From positions 1 through 43,864 of the forward strand of contig CAMJDZ010000005.1 of assembly GCA_946404545.1 (NCBI GenBank): a stretch of DNA of 43,864 bases, given 5' to 3'. Both the position numbers and the translations under genes were made by a program. The stretch is from an uncultured Candidatus Saccharibacteria bacterium (GTDB taxonomy: Bacteria; Patescibacteriota; Saccharimonadia; Saccharimonadales; Saccharimonadaceae). Below, piece after piece: positions 15,784 to 22,602 of the stretch (positions are counted from its first letter, which is position 1; the number at the start of each line of letters is the position of its first letter). Under the pieces are notes generated by a model. The model saw nothing but the letters and a program-made list of their open reading frames with translations. It did no database searches and was not told the DNA's origin.

Positions 15784-15860
15784 GCGGGTTTAGCTCAGTT
15801 GTTTAGAGCGCTTCCTTGCCAAGGAAGAGGTCGAGAGTTAGAGTCTCTTAACCCGCACCA
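15784..15860 (+). tRNA. tRNA-Gly (GCC)
   Basis: Acceptor GCGGGTT/AACCCGC, D arm TAGCTCAGTTGTTTAGAGC, anticodon arm CTTCC-TTGCCAA-GGAAG with anticodon GCC, and encoded CCA, followed immediately by seven T's. The array of unusual cassettes begins right after it; no second copy of the tRNA 3' end was seen on the far side. Confidence 0.96.
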
Positions 15861-15901
15861 TTTTTTTATACCCCGACCAGGGGTTATTTTTGTGCCCAAA
15901 A

Positions 15902-15979
15902 TTGACTTTTTGGGGCATTTATGCTATAATTATAAGATAGTTTTAGGACTGCACATTACAAAGAAAGGTGGTGACCATA
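15902..15979 (+). promoter_or_regulatory. array unit 1 promoter and conserved leader
   Basis: TTGACT (15902-15907), 17 bp, TATAAT (15925-15930), then the conserved leader AGTTTTAGGACTGCAC starting at 15939 and the ribosome site AAAGGTGGTG. Confidence 0.85.
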
Positions 15980-16597
15980 ATGGGCACAGCAAAATCGGAC
16001 ATTATTAAGGAATTGTCGACAAGCAGAACAGAGCGCGATAACGCAAAGGATGTGTTGGCGCAAAAGGAAGACGTCTTTGAGAAAGTTAGAGAAACGTACA
16101 GGAAAGAACTAGATGTTTTTAAAGATGATCTACGAAATTGCACCGAAGCGCTTCTGGCTGAGTGTGGAACAAAACCGCGAACTCTTGCGGTGATGAGCGG
16201 TATCGTAATTAGATATCTAGAGGATGGCTCTAAATATCGTTATGTCTATCCCTTTGCAGATCTTTCATCGTCTGGCAAGGAGTTTATTAGTTCAATTCCT
16301 GTCGCTACAGTCGAAAGGTCGTATGAAGAACTGCTAAAAGAGTTTGACGCGACTTTCGCGAAGGGGAGCGCTATAATTAAGTACCCCAGGCACCGTGGCG
16401 GACGAAATGCGCGAAGCTGGGAAGGCGAGCTTTTGCGCTCGATTGCCTTTTTCTACTATCATTGGGAGCTCGATCTAATAGATGCAATCAATAAGGCAAA
16501 AGATGTTATCGAGCAGAATGCGTATCTGGCCGAGGATGGTTATTACGAATCCTTGACCGAATATCTTTTCTGCCTTGGCGACGCAGAATCCACCTAA
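15980..16597 (+). CDS. array protein 1, unknown function (coiled coil plus shared C-terminal motif)
   Basis: A 205-aa protein, no signal peptide. N-terminal coiled coil (about residues 8-55, TERDNAKDVLAQKEDVFEK). A middle part resembles its neighbours (VIRYLEDGSKYRYVYPF; SYEELLKEF then a hydrophobic strand). The C-terminus carries the array's shared motif, here LLRSIAFFYYHWELDLIDAI, then an alternating hydrophobic helix and YLFCL. The start is ATG 15980, seven bases after AAAGGTGGTG. The stop lies inside CCTAAAAC (16593-16600), complementary to the leader GTTTTAGG. Arg is often AGA/AGG, unlike the CGC-rich housekeeping genes around. No known family recognised. Confidence 0.85.
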   Translation: MGTAKSDIIKELSTSRTERDNAKDVLAQKEDVFEKVRETYRKELDVFKDDLRNCTEALLAECGTKPRTLAVMSGIVIRYLEDGSKYRYVYPFADLSSSGKEFISSIPVATVERSYEELLKEFDATFAKGSAIIKYPRHRGGRNARSWEGELLRSIAFFYYHWELDLIDAINKAKDVIEQNAYLAEDGYYESLTEYLFCLGDAEST

Positions 16598-16604
16598 AAC
16601 AATA

Positions 16605-16628
16605 CCGGCCCGCGTAGGGCCGGTTTTT
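16605..16628 (+). terminator. array unit 1 terminator
   Basis: CCGGCCC/GGGCCGG stem with a five-base loop, then TTTTT. The leader complement lies just before it. Confidence 0.93.
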
Positions 16629-16644
16629 CATTGGCTAGAATTCT

Positions 16645-16719
16645 TTGACAATAATAGAGAAATATGGTAAAATATACACAGTTTTAGGACGCACTTTGCA
16701 AAGAAATGAGGTGATTAAA
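16645..16719 (+). promoter_or_regulatory. array unit 2 promoter and conserved leader
   Basis: TTGACA (16645-16650), 17 bp, TAAAAT (16668-16673), six bases, then the leader AGTTTTAGGAC from 16680 and the ribosome site GAGGTG. Confidence 0.85.
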
Positions 16720-17295
16720 TTGGCAAAAGCAAATGTTGTCAAAAATCTCAGTCAAGAAATTTTACAGGAACTGGCTACTATTGCTGAGCTGGAAAAGAAA
16801 AAGCCGACTCAGAGAGCCGAATTGATGGAATCACTAAAGGAACGCACGCAGGTTTTGCTGAAGAGGTACGTAAACCATGATCCGGAGCTAGCATTGCTGG
16901 ACTCAGTCTTTATAGGGGAATGGCATATTTACCCATGTAAAAGCGCCCGTATTTATCGGCGCGCCTTCGTCATAAAATGGGATAAGAAAAAGCGCCGTTA
17001 CTATAATGCGGTAGGAGAAACTATTGGTAGTAACTGCGGCTTAAGTCCTTCGTTTGATGAAAAGGAACGCAAATTAACTGGCGACGGAGTAGTAATAAAA
17101 CTCCGGCCCAGCACGTATTACAAGGACCGTTTCCAGAACAACCTCACGATGATTCTCGCGTATTTTTACGAGCGGTCAGGCAGTATCAAACAGGCCATCG
17201 AAGACACAAAGAAGCTCGTTGAGTCACTCAGGGATCCTGACGATATCAACGACTACAATTACTTTCTGGATGCTTTGTTTAAAGATGGTGAGTGA
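16720..17295 (+). CDS. array protein 2, unknown function
   Basis: A 191-aa protein starting with TTG 16720 behind ATGAGGTGATTAAA. It has a short helical N-terminus (about residues 5-50) with less coiled coil than its neighbours, a middle with many basic and aromatic residues (IYRRAFVIKWDKKKRRYYNAVG), the strand GVVIKL, and the shared C-terminal motif MILAYFYERSGSIKQAIEDTKKLVE. It ends with TGA; the partner of the leader, CCTGAAACT (17307-17315), lies 11 bases beyond and pairs with AGTTTTAGG using one G-U wobble. No known family recognised. Confidence 0.83.
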   Translation: MAKANVVKNLSQEILQELATIAELEKKKPTQRAELMESLKERTQVLLKRYVNHDPELALLDSVFIGEWHIYPCKSARIYRRAFVIKWDKKKRRYYNAVGETIGSNCGLSPSFDEKERKLTGDGVVIKLRPSTYYKDRFQNNLTMILAYFYERSGSIKQAIEDTKKLVESLRDPDDINDYNYFLDALFKDGE

Positions 17296-17319
17296 AATCA
17301 ATTAAACCTGAAACTAACA

Positions 17320-17346
17320 CCGGCCCCCAAACGGAGGCCGGTTTTT
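17320..17346 (+). terminator. array unit 2 terminator
   Basis: CCGGCC (17320-17325) / GGCCGG (17336-17341), then TTTTT. Confidence 0.92.
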
Positions 17347-17395
17347 GCGCCCAAAATTTTCCCAGCTCAACCTTCAATATCGGCGCGCAAAATGT

Positions 17396-17448
17396 TATAA
17401 AAGAATTAGTTTTAGGTAGTACTTTTCAAAAGAAAGAAGGTGATGGCT
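17396..17448 (+). promoter_or_regulatory. array unit 3 promoter and conserved leader
   Basis: TATAAA (17396-17401) with only a weak -35 (TTCAAT), six bases, then the leader AGTTTTAGG from 17408 and the ribosome site AAGAAGGTG. Confidence 0.72.
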
Positions 17449-17631
17449 ATGGGGGACATTAATCACCCGACAGACCCAGAAGAGCTGCTAGAGACTCTAT
17501 GGTATTATCGGCTGCCGATCCACCTCAAAAACTATCAGCAATTTCTGTATGATCGCTACGTGGAAGAATTTGGTAAACCGCCGCCAGAGTACGAAGAAGT
17601 CTTCGACAACCTCATTAATAGGGAGATCTAA
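17449..17631 (+). CDS. array unit 3, short 60-aa protein, unknown
   Basis: The ORF is only 60 aa from ATG 17449, placed where the TTG start lies in other units; an in-frame ATG at 17443 is too close to the ribosome site. The sequence is acidic and helical (PTDPEELLETLWYY ... QQFLYDRYVEEFGKPPPEYEEVFDNLI) and lacks the coiled coil and FFYR-like motif of its neighbours, so it is either unrelated cargo or a heavily reduced copy. The stop lies in CTAAAAC (17628-17634), which still pairs with its own leader. Full promoter, leader and terminator are kept, which argues for a real gene. Confidence 0.65.
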   Translation: MGDINHPTDPEELLETLWYYRLPIHLKNYQQFLYDRYVEEFGKPPPEYEEVFDNLINREI

Positions 17632-17638
17632 AACCGCA

Positions 17639-17660
17639 CCGGCCTATGGGCCGGTTTTTT
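17639..17660 (+). terminator. array unit 3 terminator
   Basis: CCGGCC (17639-17644) / GGCCGG (17649-17654), then six T's. Confidence 0.92.
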
Positions 17661-17677
17661 CTCGCTTATGCTTGGCC

Positions 17678-17748
17678 AAAACCAATAATTCTTTATAATT
17701 TGAAGTAGTTTTAGTATGCACATTACAAACGAAAGAAGGTGACGAAAG
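17678..17748 (+). promoter_or_regulatory. array unit 4 promoter and conserved leader
   Basis: TATAAT (17694-17699) with the -35-like TTGGCC 16 bp upstream, then the leader AGTTTTAGTATGCAC from 17707 and the ribosome site GAAGGTG. Confidence 0.8.
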
Positions 17749-18408
17749 ATGTTCGAAGAATTCAAAAAAATCCGAAACATGAGCGCAGTCGAGATTGAAA
17801 AAGAGTGCGTAAGGCTCAGAAAAGAATTAGACAAGCCTGGAGCAAATGAGGACGAAAATTACGCAAAGCGACGCATGTATGCCTACGCGCGCGAGATTCG
17901 GTTCAGTGAATTCCGCAGTGATTTGGGAGATTATATTGTAGATTTTCGCACTAATAAAGGCGAAGAATTTAAAGAACTCCTCAGCAAGCTTGTCGTCCGG
18001 CAGGTCGTAGAAATCAAGCCGAACGATTACTATTTTGGCTGTAGGAAATTGAAGTTTTACGCCTATTCGCCCGTTTCTCGTTATTTCGAGATACTACAGA
18101 AGGACTGGAAACACGCTGCTTGCCAGTCGTATATCTGGCAAGACGATCCGGACTTCGAACGATTAGAGAAGGGGCTCGTCGACGGCAAGGTTGTCATTGA
18201 TCTCGAACTCGTCAACGAAGAATCCCTGCATGTGCTGTGGAGTGAAACGATTAAAGTATTCGCCTTCTATTATCGGCGCGACGGCTCATTTGAAAAAGCC
18301 GCGCTCGGTACGAAAGAGTTTATGGAAATACTGGTTGTCGCAGAGAAGTATTGGTCAGTTAAGGTTGACGAAGAGCTGTACAGAATCTCGCTGAAGCCGG
18401 CTTCCTAA
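17749..18408 (+). CDS. array protein 4, unknown function
   Basis: A 219-aa protein from ATG 17749. The N-terminal half is helical and charged (FKKIRNMSAVEIEKECVRLRKELD). The middle has aromatic strands (VEIKPNDYYFGCRKLKFYAYSPVSRYF), then DFERLEKGLVDGKVVIDLELV, a pattern shared with array proteins 5-7, and the C-terminal motif IKVFAFYYRRDGSFEKAALGTKEFMEI followed by ELYRISL. The stop lies in TTCCTAAAAACT (18402-18413), complementary to the leader TAGTTTTAG with one bulged A. No signal peptide or known domain recognised. Confidence 0.85.
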   Translation: MFEEFKKIRNMSAVEIEKECVRLRKELDKPGANEDENYAKRRMYAYAREIRFSEFRSDLGDYIVDFRTNKGEEFKELLSKLVVRQVVEIKPNDYYFGCRKLKFYAYSPVSRYFEILQKDWKHAACQSYIWQDDPDFERLEKGLVDGKVVIDLELVNEESLHVLWSETIKVFAFYYRRDGSFEKAALGTKEFMEILVVAEKYWSVKVDEELYRISLKPAS

Positions 18409-18416
18409 AAACTACA

Positions 18417-18437
18417 CCGGCCTTCGGGCCGGTTTTT
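18417..18437 (+). terminator. array unit 4 terminator
   Basis: CCGGCC-TTCG-GGCCGG followed by TTTTT. Confidence 0.95.
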
Positions 18438-18449
18438 CATGCTCATGCT

Positions 18450-18523
18450 TTGACAAAACTAACAATTATTATATAATTAGGATAGTTTTAGGACCGTACA
18501 TTTACAAAAAGGAGGTGGTCTGA
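18450..18523 (+). promoter_or_regulatory. array unit 5 promoter and conserved leader
   Basis: TTGACA (18450-18455), 16 bp, TATAAT (18472-18477), six bases, the leader AGTTTTAGGACCG from 18484, then AAAAAGGAGGTGG. Confidence 0.88.
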
Positions 18524-19123
18524 TTGGCCAAAAAGAATGCAGAACTTGAGCAAGCAGTACAGGAGCTCAAGGAAAAACAGGGGACCGTTCGAAAACTTAA
18601 GCAGAAAGAGGAAGAAAAGTTTTCGGAGTTCTGGAGCGAACTAGAAGATTGCGCTGAGGAAATTATGCGAGCTTGTCTGCGCAAAGAGACGAGGATTAGC
18701 GGTCTCAACAAGGTAATCTTGAAGCGTGACGTTTGCGACGACGAAAAATGGAGCCACGCCGTATATGAGAAGGCTTTTTGTTTCAAGATGGTTGTTGCCT
18801 CTGGCATGTGTCAGAATGAAATTGTAGAGTGCGCGGAGATCAAAACGGCCAGCCGCAGTCTTTTTAACCGCATGGAGTCGACTATTGTTGGTAGTGGAAC
18901 CCTCATTGATCTTGGAGATGGGTTCGTCTATGACGACGGGTCTCATATGAACCTTGATGAAGCATTGATGCTTATCTTTGCGTATTTCTATCGTCAGGAT
19001 CATGATGCTACTCGTGCAATTAGTAAGCTTAAAGAAATCCTCGAGACGAACAAGAAATTGAAGTCATACTGCGACTTTGGCTTTGACGAACAAGTCGCTA
19101 AGTACCTTTATAACTTGTCCTAA
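18524..19123 (+). CDS. array protein 5, unknown function
   Basis: A 199-aa protein starting with TTG 18524, seven bases after GGAGGTGG. N-terminal coiled coil (about residues 3-40, AELEQAVQELKEKQG), then FWSELEDCAEEIMRACL, a middle with several Cys residues, SGTLIDLGDG, and the shared motif LMLIFAYFYRQDHDATRAISKLKEIL with a final YLYNLS. The stop lies within GTCCTAAAAACT (19117-19128), which can pair over 12 bp with the leader TAGTTTTAGGAC with one bulge, the best match in the array. Function unknown. Confidence 0.86.
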   Translation: MAKKNAELEQAVQELKEKQGTVRKLKQKEEEKFSEFWSELEDCAEEIMRACLRKETRISGLNKVILKRDVCDDEKWSHAVYEKAFCFKMVVASGMCQNEIVECAEIKTASRSLFNRMESTIVGSGTLIDLGDGFVYDDGSHMNLDEALMLIFAYFYRQDHDATRAISKLKEILETNKKLKSYCDFGFDEQVAKYLYNLS

Positions 19124-19131
19124 AAACTACA

Positions 19132-19152
19132 CCGGCCTTCGGGCCGGTTTTT
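19132..19152 (+). terminator. array unit 5 terminator
   Basis: CCGGCC-TTCG-GGCCGG followed by TTTTT. Confidence 0.95.
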
Positions 19153-19164
19153 CATGCCCGTGTT

Positions 19165-19245
19165 TTGACGAGTGATGCAGATTATGGTATAATAATCTCA
19201 TTGTTTTAGGACCGCACATTTACAAAAAGAAATGAGGTGATTTGT
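19165..19245 (+). promoter_or_regulatory. array unit 6 promoter and conserved leader
   Basis: TTGACG (19165-19170), 17 bp, TATAAT (19188-19193), six bases, the leader ATTGTTTTAGGACC from 19200, then ATGAGGTGATTTG. Confidence 0.86.
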
Positions 19246-19923
19246 TTGGATTTAGCAGCAGCAAGAAAACTTGAGGCAGATTATAATTCTGCCGCAGCGC
19301 AGGTCAGTTCCGCAGCCGAGGAGCTCCGCGAAAGGGAAAACGCCTTCGAGAAGCTCGAGATCAAACGGAGGAGTTCGATCGAGACATTTTGGCGCGAACT
19401 GGAGGCATACTTCAATCGCGTTTTTAAAGACAAGATGACGAAGGATCCTGCCGTAACAGAAGCGTTGGGTAACGTAATAATCAAGTGGGCGGACGCTGAT
19501 ACGTTTGTGTCGCAGGCTTGGTATTGGCGTTATCTCGACTTTTTAACTCCGGCAGAGTCAATTCTGAAGGATAGAGACTGGAAATATGACGGTAGTAACT
19601 TTGTTGTTATTAGCAAAGATTATCCGAAATTGAAGGAGTGCGAGCTGTCTCTTTATGCGGAGCGCATTCTCGTATGCTTTCCATATCTACGCAGCCACTC
19701 CTGGGATAACCTTATCTACGATAAGAACAAAATTATGGCTTTCTTCTATCGCCAAACCGGGGGAGATGCCGTGTTGGCTACCGAATTGTTTAGGGATTTT
19801 ATCGAAAACTCAGCAAAAAATCCTGACTATTCGATAGAAAAATGCAGTCATGAGGGAAGTTTGGCGTATAAGGGCGACCTGTATGCCATCGCTCTTGCAG
19901 ATAATTCGCTTGAAGAGAAATGA
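19246..19923 (+). CDS. array protein 6, unknown function (first gene of a two-gene unit)
   Basis: A 225-aa protein from TTG 19246. Coiled coil (about residues 3-45, AAARKLEADYNSAAAQ ... ERENAFEKLEIKRR), then FWRELEAYFNRVF, a tryptophan/tyrosine-rich middle (AWYWRYLDFL), YPKLKECELSLYAERILVCFP and the shared motif IMAFFYRQTGGDAVLATELFRDFIE ending GDLYAIAL. Its TGA stop lies inside ATGAGGTG, the ribosome site of the next ORF. Unlike the other units it has no terminator or leader complement of its own. Function unknown. Confidence 0.85.
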   Translation: MDLAAARKLEADYNSAAAQVSSAAEELRERENAFEKLEIKRRSSIETFWRELEAYFNRVFKDKMTKDPAVTEALGNVIIKWADADTFVSQAWYWRYLDFLTPAESILKDRDWKYDGSNFVVISKDYPKLKECELSLYAERILVCFPYLRSHSWDNLIYDKNKIMAFFYRQTGGDAVLATELFRDFIENSAKNPDYSIEKCSHEGSLAYKGDLYAIALADNSLEEK

Positions 19924-19933
19924 GGTGATTTGT

Positions 19934-20563
19934 TTGTTAGACAATAAAGATGCTATTGCTATCGAGGAGCAGTGCAAGAATAGTGATGCTGAGCTCGCGA
20001 AGCTCGAGGAGCAAGTTGCTGCAAAAAAGCAGGAAAATAAGATAATAAACAAGCAACGCAACGAAAGTATCAGTAAATTTCGCGAGGATCTTATTAGTTA
20101 TTCGGAACGTTTCATGGGCGAAGTGTTGAATGTAGATGGCGGACGGGAACTCGGCGAATTGAGCACTATCTTCGTGAAGAGAGTTGAGAAATGGAAAAGC
20201 TCTAGAAGCGACAATAATGTCGTTCATAAATACTACCCCGCTTTCTATTTTAGATACAAGGACGGTTCACCCGATAATGACACCGGCTTATGGGGCCAGT
20301 ATAAACCGATATCTTATGTCGTTGAGGGCGACCCCAACTATGAGGCGCTCGTTAAGGCAATCATTGGCGAAGGCAAGGTAATAGAAGTTAGCGGTTATTG
20401 CGATGAAAATCTCTTCGTTTACGTTTTCTGTTATTTTTATCGTCAAAACAACGACATGAAGCAGTCGATTGACGAGATGATGAAGATTTTTGCCGGAAGA
20501 ACAGAACTGAATAGCGGCACCATCATTAATGACGTACTTTATGGCTTATATTTAAAGCAGTAG
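19934..20563 (+). CDS. array protein 7, unknown function (second gene of a two-gene unit)
   Basis: A 209-aa protein from TTG 19934. The string GAAATGAGGTGATTTGTTTG before it is identical to that before array protein 6, as if a unit leader had been joined directly to the end of gene 6. Long coiled coil (about residues 8-50), KFREDLISYSERFMGEVL, AFYFRYKDGSPD, YEALVKAIIGEGKVIEV and the shared motif VYVFCYFYRQNNDMKQSIDEMMKIF with final LYGLYLKQ. Just after the stop, GTCCTAAAACAG (20563-20574) pairs over 12 bases with the leader of gene 6 (TTGTTTTAGGAC). Function unknown. Confidence 0.85.
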   Translation: MLDNKDAIAIEEQCKNSDAELAKLEEQVAAKKQENKIINKQRNESISKFREDLISYSERFMGEVLNVDGGRELGELSTIFVKRVEKWKSSRSDNNVVHKYYPAFYFRYKDGSPDNDTGLWGQYKPISYVVEGDPNYEALVKAIIGEGKVIEVSGYCDENLFVYVFCYFYRQNNDMKQSIDEMMKIFAGRTELNSGTIINDVLYGLYLKQ

Positions 20564-20579
20564 TCCTAAAACAGATAAT

Positions 20580-20603
20580 CCGGCCCGCGTAGGGCCGGTT
20601 TTT
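20580..20603 (+). terminator. array unit 6-7 terminator
   Basis: CCGGCCC (20580-20586) / GGGCCGG (20592-20598), then TTTTT. Confidence 0.94.
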
Positions 20604-20615
20604 CATGCTCATGCT

Positions 20616-20692
20616 TTGACAAATAGAATAATTATTATATAATTAGGACAGTTTTAGGACTGCACATTACGAAAAGAAAAGAGGTGATTTGT
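20616..20692 (+). promoter_or_regulatory. array unit 8 promoter and conserved leader
   Basis: TTGACA (20616-20621), 16 bp, TATAAT (20638-20643), six bases, the leader AGTTTTAGGACTGCAC from 20650, then GAGGTGATTTG. Confidence 0.88.
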
Positions 20693-21334
20693 TTGGACAA
20701 AGCAGGAAGGTTGGAGCTCGAAGGTCTTTTTAATAAGACCCAGGAGGAGCTTGCGTCTCGTAGAAACATGGTTAGAGAGAGCGAGAAGGCCCTGGAGGAA
20801 AGAAAGGCCGCGCGTCGCAGCGAGATTTGCGAATTTGTGGACGAACTTCGCGACCTCGCCATTGAACTCAGGGAAACGGCCGATAGTACTCCATCACTCA
20901 AGGGCGCATTGAAGTCAGTTTATTTTAGATTTGATAATAAACCCGGTGAATATGTGTACTTCAATCTTTATGACGACTTTTGCGATGTCGAGCATAATAA
21001 TTGGGGCGAGTATGGTTTTATCCGAATTAGCAAAAAACATCCGGAACTCAAGGAACGCGAAGATGCCTTGTTTGCGAATAGGACGCTCATATGTATCCCC
21101 CGCTACTCTGATGCAACATCCTATGTTATGGATGCGGTTTGGTCAATTGTGGCATGCTTCTACCTTGTGGAGGGCAAAGATGTCGATAAGGCCATCGCAA
21201 AACTCAAGGAGTATATCGAATCGGCAGTTTGGGATAGGTGTTTCGGCGATGACGATAGCACCGATAAGGAAATTGAAGCTACTGTATATGGCGAAGATCT
21301 CTATAATAGCTATTTATCGAGCGACTACACCTAG
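20693..21334 (+). CDS. array protein 8, unknown function
   Basis: A 213-aa protein from TTG 20693. Coiled coil (about residues 4-45, LELEGLFNKTQEELASRRN), FVDELRDLAIELRE, aromatic strands (YVYFNLYDDFCDVEHNNW), HPELKEREDALFANRTLICIP (the same layout as array protein 6) and the shared C-terminal motif WSIVACFYLVEGKDVDKAIAKLKEYIE, where the usual FFYR is CFYL. It ends GEDLYNSYLSS. The TAG stop lies in CCTAGAAC (21330-21337), pairing with the leader GTTTTAGG through one G-U wobble. Function unknown. Confidence 0.85.
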   Translation: MDKAGRLELEGLFNKTQEELASRRNMVRESEKALEERKAARRSEICEFVDELRDLAIELRETADSTPSLKGALKSVYFRFDNKPGEYVYFNLYDDFCDVEHNNWGEYGFIRISKKHPELKEREDALFANRTLICIPRYSDATSYVMDAVWSIVACFYLVEGKDVDKAIAKLKEYIESAVWDRCFGDDDSTDKEIEATVYGEDLYNSYLSSDYT

Positions 21335-21342
21335 AACAATTT

Positions 21343-21370
21343 AAGACCCCGCGGTGCGGGGTCTTTTTTT
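21343..21370 (+). terminator. array unit 8 terminator
   Basis: AAGACCCCGC-GGT-GCGGGGTCTT followed by more T's. It differs in sequence from the CCGGCC type of the earlier units and matches the one after unit 9. Confidence 0.95.
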
Positions 21371-21375
21371 ATAGT

Positions 21376-21417
21376 CACCCCCGTAAAAACAAGCATCGAT
21401 CCGTGGTATAATAATGC
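21376..21417 (+). repeat. diverged copy of the htpX promoter region
   Basis: This stretch, from CACCCCCGTAAAAAC to GTGGTATAATAATG, matches 22559-22600 just upstream of htpX with only a handful of differences. No ORF follows it directly; the array unit 9 promoter lies just downstream. It looks like a relic of a local duplication or of an insertion between two copies. Confidence 0.75.
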
Positions 21418-21430
21418 AAGCTTCATGCCA

Positions 21431-21507
21431 TTGACTATTTGTAGTGATTATGCTATAATAATGTAAGCTTTTAGGCGCACATTACGAAAAGGAAGGAAGT
21501 GATTCTC
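21431..21507 (+). promoter_or_regulatory. array unit 9 promoter and leader
   Basis: TTGACT (21431-21436), 17 bp, TATAAT (21454-21459), six bases, the leader AGCTTTTAGGCGCAC from 21466 and the ribosome site GGAAGTG. Confidence 0.85.
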
Positions 21508-22020
21508 TTGAAAGGAAAAAGAGCAATCGAGGTAAACAGCTTGAACGATTTCGAGAAAGATCTCGCTATCCAGGCAGAGACTTTTATGTCGATGTATTTG
21601 GATGGCAAGATTAGGGTTCCCGGATTGTATGATATTCGTTTACTGGAGTCGGTTTATCGCCGTTTTGGTCGCGGTAAGGAACAGTATTATGATCACTACA
21701 TCAGGGCGTTCTCGTTTAAGCAGAGAGGGTCCGGCGAGGTTCATAATGACGGCCCGCACGACGATTACTACGCTCCGATTCGTCCCGAGATTGGCGGAAA
21801 AGTCGAAAAACTGGCGATTGGAAGAACTTGCTATATCGACATCGGCCAAGGCCTTGGCGAAGGGATGAATTACGATTCTGTGGTAGAAATTTTTGTATTC
21901 TTCTGGATGAGATATGAAAAGGATCTCGCCAAAATCATTAAGGCAACCGGCGAAGTAATTCGTAAACACGAGCAGTTGCCCTACGCTGAGCAGCTCTATA
22001 AGATAGCGTTCAAAGCTTAA
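21508..22020 (+). CDS. array protein 9, unknown function (shortened N-terminus)
   Basis: A 170-aa protein from TTG 21508. It lacks the N-terminal coiled coil and begins near the second helix of the family (LNDFEKDLAIQAETFMSMYL). A middle part with RVPGLYDIRLLESVYRRF corresponds to the RISGLNKVILK region of array protein 5, and the shared C-terminal motif is VVEIFVFFWMRYEKDLAKIIKATGEVI with LYKIAFKA. The leader reads AAGCTTTT and the 3' end has AAAGCTT (22012-22018), overlapping the stop, so the ends can still pair over 7 bp although the sequence differs from the other units. Function unknown. Confidence 0.83.
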   Translation: MKGKRAIEVNSLNDFEKDLAIQAETFMSMYLDGKIRVPGLYDIRLLESVYRRFGRGKEQYYDHYIRAFSFKQRGSGEVHNDGPHDDYYAPIRPEIGGKVEKLAIGRTCYIDIGQGLGEGMNYDSVVEIFVFFWMRYEKDLAKIIKATGEVIRKHEQLPYAEQLYKIAFKA

Positions 22021-22033
22021 TCCTTCAAAAAGG

Positions 22034-22056
22034 CCCCGCGGTGCGGGGTCTTTTTT
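22034..22056. terminator. bidirectional terminator between array and minus-strand gene
   Basis: CCCCGC-GGT-GCGGGG with TCTTTTTT on the right and A's on the left. It serves array unit 9 and the converging gene at 22055. Confidence 0.92.
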
Positions 22057-22492
22057 AAAGGTTTTCGACGAGAATATCGAGAAGCTTCTGGTTAGATTCG
22101 GTCGTGTTGCCACCCCAAACTGCGAAGAAAGAATCAATATTCCTATCTTCGTCGAGCGTTTGCTCGATGCGTTTTGTGGCCGCTTCTGCCTTAGACCAAT
22201 TGCTGAAACTTATCTGCCGGTCTTTCTGAATCAGAATCTTGTGATAGTCGCTAATGTGATGAAGAAACTGCTTTTCGAAATCTTCAGTCGCACAAAAGCC
22301 AACCATTCTAGATTCGGTATGAATGAATCGGTGATTGCGGTTTCGGTCCGCCTTATCCTTAGGCACGTCTAGGACATGAAATGACAGAACGGCTCCGTCG
22401 ATTTCATTCTCCTCGCACATTTTTGTAGCCTTGGCCACTGCTTGCTCCATATTCTCGCGCACTGCTGCAATGAACAACAAATCTTTATACAT
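22055..22492 (-). CDS. hypothetical protein, unknown function
   Basis: A 145-aa soluble protein. It begins KDLLFIAAVRENMEQAVAKATKMCEENEIDGAVLSFHVLDVPKDK, suggesting an alpha/beta domain. The second half is helical with FLHHISDYHKILIQKD, and the end reads SFFAVWGGNTTESNQKLLDILVENL. The sequence does not resemble the array proteins and I recognise no family. A strong GAGGGGGTG site precedes the ATG. Its promoter (TTGATT, 17 bp, TATAAT) matches that of the gene at 8768 over about 40 bases. It is transcribed divergently from htpX. Confidence 0.8.
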   Translation of the reverse strand: MYKDLLFIAAVRENMEQAVAKATKMCEENEIDGAVLSFHVLDVPKDKADRNRNHRFIHTESRMVGFCATEDFEKQFLHHISDYHKILIQKDRQISFSNWSKAEAATKRIEQTLDEDRNIDSFFAVWGGNTTESNQKLLDILVENL

Positions 22493-22602
22493 TTGTCTAC
22501 ACCCCCTCGAATATTGTATCTATTAATTATACCACAGAATGGCTCAAAAATCAAGAATCACCCCTGTAAAAACGAGCATCAATCTGTGGTATAATAATGT
22601 AT

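Follow-up and report, generated by a model that had tools for sequence, protein, structure and literature searches.

RNA viruses carry panhandle or cyclisation sequences, short complementary ends that close a long RNA. We know of end-to-end pairing in bacterial messenger RNAs (mRNAs) from a few toxin mRNAs and from icaR, none of them forming a genus-wide set with gene-specific helices. In the hok and aapA mRNAs the 5' and 3' ends pair, with coupled covariation described for hok, and the closed full-length form is stable and untranslated until its 3' end is trimmed (PMC6733600). In the icaR mRNA of Staphylococcus aureus, a UCCCCUG motif of the 3' untranslated region (3'-UTR) pairs with the Shine-Dalgarno site in its own 5'-UTR and lowers translation, and a compensating mutation restores the pairing (PMC3868564). 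The stretch analysed here is 43,864 nucleotides of contig DNA from an uncultured Candidatus Saccharibacteria bacterium (the whole stretch being called “the window”). At 15.9-22.0 kb it holds an array of nine open reading frames (ORFs) in eight transcription units, flanked by a tRNA gene and htpX, and each of the eight units has a 5' element at the predicted mRNA start and the complement of this element near the terminator stem. Sequence statistics showed that a transcript can pair its own two ends both in this array and in many unrelated genes from two genera of the family. Transcription starts and terminators were predictions from sequence throughout.

The broadest evidence came from genes selected by their 5' ends only. 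A pattern consisting of a -10 box, GCACATT and AGG, with the 3' ends disregarded in the selection, matched in 112 of the 394 genomes of the family, against a handful of matches for the reversed control; the matches were concentrated in two genera, with few in other genera of the family and almost none in the rest of the class. About 110 loci were picked in this way, and their start codon, operon end and terminator were called by a fixed script, whose possible miscalls of any of the three are expected to weaken the signal, not to create it. For the 64 non-redundant units with a terminator (a few homologous pairs, e.g. L148 and L152, were left among them), the leader was complementary to its own 18 nucleotides (nt) before the terminator stem, with a helix score of 16.7 vs. 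12.8 for swapped ends (z 13.2; 10,000 permutations gave no score as high), and 29 units fell in the top 5% (3.2 expected). The same test gave z -0.4 by helix score in a small control set of 40 units without the motif; the initial control set of 43 units had contained array-type contaminants and a tRNA-bearing one (z -2.3 by energy), and three units were removed from it. Full-length folding of the motif units agreed with the swap test: a median of 8.1 base pairs (bp) was expected between the native ends vs. 1.9 with swapped 3' pieces, and at least 5 bp between the ends were found in 38 of 54 native transcripts vs. 14 of 54 swapped ones. The genes concerned were diverse, including HD (HD-domain), PNP_UDP_1 (nucleoside phosphorylase), CTP_transf_1 (cytidylyltransferase) and SH3_3 members as well as many unassigned proteins, and their pairs differed in sequence: AATTCTTATGCA/TGCATAAGAATT (L119), GGTGATTTATCG/CGATAAATCACT (L167, one G-U), AAAAGGTTGGT/ACCAACCTTTT (L120), GTAGGAATTA/TAATTCCTAC (L086) and TAGGTTTGGG/CCCAAACCTA (L136). 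An initial pattern search within the genus had produced false leads in G019 and G026.

Array-type units were examined in the same way, those of the second genus of the family being found with two leader sequence models (R1 and R2). Across 26 such units from both genera, own ends beat all 20,000 swaps (z -6.7 for duplex energy, 6.8 for helix score). The earlier note on this DNA had proposed swapped leaders and 3' ends as the control, and in the window alone this control was not decisive: 403 (energy) and 685 (helix score) of 20,000 permutations of the eight units were as good as the own pairs (p about 0.02-0.03). Own pairs were only modestly better there because the units share one consensus, so that a leader also matches the tails of other units. 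The nucleotide before GTTTT paired in 16 of 23 units (shuffled mean 12.1, p 0.002) as A-U, G-C, U-A or G-U, and the one after AGGA in 7 of 9 units (p 0.02) as C-G, U-A or A-U. Examples of array-type pairs are AGTTTTTAGAAG/CTTCTAAAAACT (G348) and TAGGTTTTAGG/CCTAAAACCTA (G263), and in G336 the pair TAGGTTTGGG/CCCAAACCTA precedes an unrelated SH3-domain gene. Pairing was wholly or mostly lost in unit 1 of G030 and in G045_b.

Two alternatives draw on the modest result of the window. A copied unit might have carried a leader and a stop region matching by accident, the window units being paralogues with a shared consensus and a permutation p of only about 0.02-0.03; changed leaders go with changed 3' ends in the relatives, however, and unrelated genes show matching ends with different sequences, which makes chance or shared ancestry a practically negligible explanation. 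Alternatively, the pairing could be intermolecular, if the 3' piece with its terminator were set free as a small RNA or if sibling mRNAs paired with one another; leaders would then be regulated in trans. The AGUUUUAGGA leaders and UCCUAAAAC tails common to array units would allow such cross-pairing, and own pairs exceeded swapped ones just slightly within the window, but each gene outside the arrays best matches itself, as expected of a cis contact, and the contact between the ends is predicted inside single full-length transcripts; we regard regulation in trans as improbable.

The position of the signal was mapped by a 12-nt scan. On the 5' side, sequence from the -35 region up to and including the -10 box gave no signal; it set in 2 nt past the -10 box, peaked 6-17 nt past it (z 10.3), dropped at the motif and reappeared between 18 and 41 nt. 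The 3' signal was confined to the 14 nt or so that precede the terminator stem (z 12.1), with none in the stem, beyond the stem or in the coding region. The helix started a median of 8 nt past the -10 box, and in the 29 best-matching motif units its 3' end lay a median of 2 nt from the terminator stem, which bears out the placement of the panhandle beside the terminator proposed in the earlier note. Helix position also varied with that of the motif: where the motif was 14-20 nt from the -10 box, the helix lay upstream of it (z 10.6) and the stretch ahead of the start codon paired too (z 4.8), and where the motif was nearer, the helix lay just downstream (z 5.7). In motif genes other than the array units, pairing was seen downstream of the motif (z 6.7). 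The conserved GCACAUUA adjoins the helix without being itself specifically paired, and the extended motif reads about GCACATTA(A/C)(A/C)A.

The main argument for pairing in RNA is that the signal respects the start and the end of the transcript, which a DNA repeat has no reason to do; the complementarity of leader and 3' end strongly indicates RNA pairing. DNA-level inverted repeats around each ORF, serving recombination or cassette exchange, would fit helices that are mainly Watson-Crick, with no excess of G-U over A-C, and the location of the array at a variable site flanked by a tRNA gene and htpX. Against this, the sequence is private to each gene and offers no common recombination site, of the type expected in integron-type cassettes; transcription start and terminator mark the limits of the signal; and elements lying inside promoter and terminator do not bound a complete movable unit. 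We consider DNA repeats highly improbable. The claim that compensating changes favour RNA pairing over a plain repeat was upheld by the swaps, by different Watson-Crick pairs at one position and by a signal bounded by transcript ends in unrelated genes; a plain repeat, like chance, was contradicted by the swap tests.

In the array of the window, sigma-70-like promoters (score 10-12 of 12) precede seven of the eight units, that of unit 3 being weaker and outside the list; the units are followed by predicted hairpin terminators, and the 3' elements stop a few nt short of the terminator stem. The features are as follows (window coordinates; aa, amino acids; folding probability, mean value for the end helix in the folded transcript).

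15940-15947, + strand: unit 1 5' element GTTTTAGG, at the predicted mRNA start; -10 box at 15925
15951-15957, + strand: unit 1 GCACATT motif
15980-16597, + strand: unit 1 ORF, 205 aa, without family match
16593-16600, + strand: unit 1 3' element CCTAAAAC, overlapping the stop codon; terminator 16604-16624; folding probability 0.98
16680-16688, + strand: unit 2 5' element AGTTTTAGG; motif GCACTTT at 16691-16697
16720-17295, + strand: unit 2 ORF, 191 aa
17307-17315, + strand: unit 2 3' element CCTGAAACT, 11 nt past the stop and ahead of the terminator hairpin; one G-U; folding probability 0.98
17409-17417, + strand: unit 3 5' element GTTTTAGGT; motif GTACTTT at 17419-17425
17440-17631, + strand: unit 3 short ORF, about 61 aa, resembling a truncated paralogue
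17626-17634, + strand: unit 3 3' element ATCTAAAAC; terminator 17638-17655; one G-U; folding probability 0.74
17709-17714, + strand: unit 4 5' element TTTTAG; motif GCACATT at 17718-17724; longer helix only with a bulge
17749-18408, + strand: unit 4 ORF, 219 aa
18405-18410, + strand: unit 4 3' element CTAAAA (within CCTAAAAACT); terminator 18416-18433; helix weakly predicted in the folded transcript
18486-18494, + strand: unit 5 5' element TTTTAGGAC; motif GTACATT at 18496-18502
18524-19123, + strand: unit 5 ORF, 199 aa
19117-19125, + strand: unit 5 3' element GTCCTAAAA, with a bulged A beyond the element; terminator 19131-19148; folding probability 0.75
19201-19212, + strand: unit 6-7 5' element TTGTTTTAGGAC; motif GCACATT at 19214-19220
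19246-19923, + strand: unit 6 ORF, 225 aa
19937-20563, + strand: unit 7 ORF, 208 aa, sharing the unit 6 transcript, without a leader of its own
20563-20574, + strand: unit 6-7 3' element GTCCTAAAACAG, 12 bp with one G-U, one-base overlap with the stop; terminator 20580-20598; folding probability 1.00
20651-20658, + strand: unit 8 5' element GTTTTAGG; motif GCACATT at 20662-20668
20693-21334, + strand: unit 8 ORF, 213 aa
21330-21337, + strand: unit 8 3' element CCTAGAAC, one G-U; terminator 21343-21365; folding probability 0.96
21464-21471, + strand: unit 9 5' element TAAGCTTT; motif GCACATT at 21477-21483
21508-22020, + strand: unit 9 ORF, 170 aa
22012-22019, + strand: unit 9 3' element AAAGCTTA, weak, with a self-complementary core; folding probability about 0.002

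All the complementary elements listed in the earlier note were found at their positions, and complementary ends were present in all eight units, with reservations for three of them: in units 4 and 5, AAAAA faces TTTT and the longer helix contains a bulge, and the match of unit 9 is weak, its AAGCTT being self-complementary and the end helix being absent from the folded full transcript. Full-transcript folding predicted a strong end helix for units 1, 2, 6-7 and 8, a moderate one for units 3 and 5 and a weak one for units 4 and 9. The panhandle had also been said to hide the stop codon. This held for most array units, in which the stop codon lies inside the helix, but not for unit 2 or for units 6-7, and alignment of the signal was tighter to the terminator than to the stop codon (z 12.1 vs. 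8.2).

With hok and aapA the transcripts described here share the pairing of the 5' and 3' ends of one mRNA, with covariation. Those systems, however, consist of small toxins with antisense RNAs and a masked Shine-Dalgarno site, whereas the proteins encoded here are mostly larger (56-376 aa), unrelated to one another and in some cases carry enzyme-type domains, none being recognizable as a small hydrophobic toxin ORF; in addition, the array helix lies upstream of the Shine-Dalgarno site, GCACAUU is shared, and the helix differs by gene. The resemblance to icaR is closest in L102 and L172, in which a CCUCC-type element before the terminator stands opposite the Shine-Dalgarno site. In the array, by contrast, the 5' partner is the mRNA start, upstream of the Shine-Dalgarno site, and icaR is a single mRNA whose motif lies 260 nt past the stop in a 3'-UTR of 390 nt, whereas here many genes that share a leader motif have their 3' element beside the stop codon and the terminator. 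The difference from RNA virus panhandles is that the RNAs concerned are bacterial mRNAs, which end in a terminator hairpin and have no replication function.

The reading we prefer, with a probability of roughly 0.55, is a fold-back switch which combines control of translation with protection of the ends and is opened through GCACAUU. By the sequence statistics, a gene-specific helix of about 8-13 bp links the very start of the mRNA (or the nucleotides immediately past the motif) with the final ~14 nt ahead of the terminator stem, and this helix and the terminator hairpin can stack. In the proposed switch, the 5' leader would be free during transcription and ribosomes could load; once the 3' end was made, the leader would close onto it. 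The closed mRNA, with its ends protected and its ribosome-binding region constrained, would be stored and poorly translated, until it was opened by a factor acting at GCACAUU or by a ribosome reaching the stop codon. Silencing is preferred because the experimentally studied bacterial 5'-3' pairings considered here lower translation (PMC3868564, PMC6733600) and because the Shine-Dalgarno region is paired in some of the genes outside the array. The position of GCACAUU next to the helix suggests a recognised site.

Several observations weigh against the fold-back switch. About half of the motif-bearing genes had no clear end pairing, and in the array the Shine-Dalgarno site is outside the helix, direct masking being unsupported there. 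G-U and A-C mismatches were equally frequent in the helices; this test was neutral on RNA, and an asymmetry of G-U over A-C was dropped as a proof of it. A search for a small RNA complementary to the motif (a promoter plus the anti-motif KTAATGTGC) gave 28 places in 174 genomes, little more than the reversed control, and no common candidate.

Protection of the ends without any effect on translation is a possible reading, though a doubtful one for the class as a whole. The helix would cover the 5' end and stack on the terminator, so that exonucleases, 5' or 3', would find no single-stranded end. Its geometry is suitable, as the helix begins at or near the first nucleotides of the predicted mRNA and ends close to the terminator stem, and the Shine-Dalgarno site of the array is free; for the array itself, end protection is nearly as plausible as fold-back silencing for this last reason. 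It does not account for the units whose motif is so close to the 5' end that the helix is downstream of it and the 5' end is unpaired, nor for the paired Shine-Dalgarno region of some non-array genes, and it leaves the conserved GCACAUU unexplained.

A more far-reaching version of the fold-back switch, which we put forward tentatively, is a post-transcriptional regulon of the two genera, in which a trans-acting factor would recognise GCACAUUA by the terminal helix and dozens of unrelated mRNAs would be closed, each with its private helix; if true, this would be a bacterial counterpart of closed-loop mRNA control. Matching ends in many unrelated genes point to an undescribed control of sets of mRNAs by loop closure. 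End pairing recurs here as a design of genes that share a leader motif, and the bacteria concerned are reduced and host-dependent, with little known of how they control their genes. Whether mRNA closure is a general regulatory device of bacteria becomes testable, and GCACAUU provides an address for finding the factor that reads this motif. No literature on such leaders in Saccharibacteria was found, which is weak evidence of novelty as subscription journals were outside the scope of the search.

The array proteins are paralogues that diverge fast (identity mostly 14-27%); they have a long N-terminal helix, and a conserved AYFYR-like motif lies close to their C-terminus. An AlphaFold model of the unit 8 protein (pLDDT 86) showed the long N-terminal helix together with an alpha/beta and helical part. 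No known family, defence system or fold was convincing in Pfam, PHROG, PADLOC or PDB folds; structure searches with an array protein gave a best E of about 0.9 (Foldseek) and a best Z of 5.0 over 44-83 residues (VIA-align), and the array ORFs (about 61-225 aa) had no toxin family matches. Rfam covariance models at gathering score detected three tRNAs in the window and no known RNA family for the array.

The genome holding the window is 801 kb (94.6% complete), and according to public records the motif-bearing relatives are Candidatus Saccharibacteria, mostly from ruminant-gut sources. Arrays were found at the same place in G018, G030 and G040. The site between the tRNA gene and htpX (15784-22597 in the window; L013, L033, L012/L014 and L028) was variable. 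Array size differed among four species of the genus, and the array of G015 had collapsed to a remnant, the final 3' piece of a unit joined to the first promoter region. In the window the array is closed beside htpX by a convergent gene of about 145 aa (22055-22492, minus strand) without a family match, and similar convergent genes occupy the htpX-side position in G030 and G040 (L013 and L033).

Some further loci carried the motif or related leaders. L144 and L145 (own genome, C7, and G018, C21) have a GCACATT leader before a zinc-ribbon-like protein of 69-70 aa, and their Shine-Dalgarno region AGGTGGA matches TCCACCT past the stop. L287 (own genome, C2, about 63480) has a non-array leader in which a local hairpin (CCAC-AAGCGA-GTGG) stands ahead of GCACATTA, and its gene starts MDARILLDPM. 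At L062 (minus strand, about 7555) and L063 (minus strand, about 6373), the leader GAACCT-GGTTTT-AGGTTC-GCACTTTTAC forms a local hairpin and precedes a short basic peptide ending in ...GKGSCCRCE and a radical SAM gene; this is perhaps a locus for a ribosomal-peptide product in which the 5' helix takes a local form. Finally, G365 has four copies, on three contigs (L106-L109), of a repeated TATAAT...CATAAAGCACATTACATATACTTGGCTAGGATTTGTATATG with a local hairpin and without a clear ORF, which may be a non-coding RNA or a mobile element bearing the GCACATT motif.

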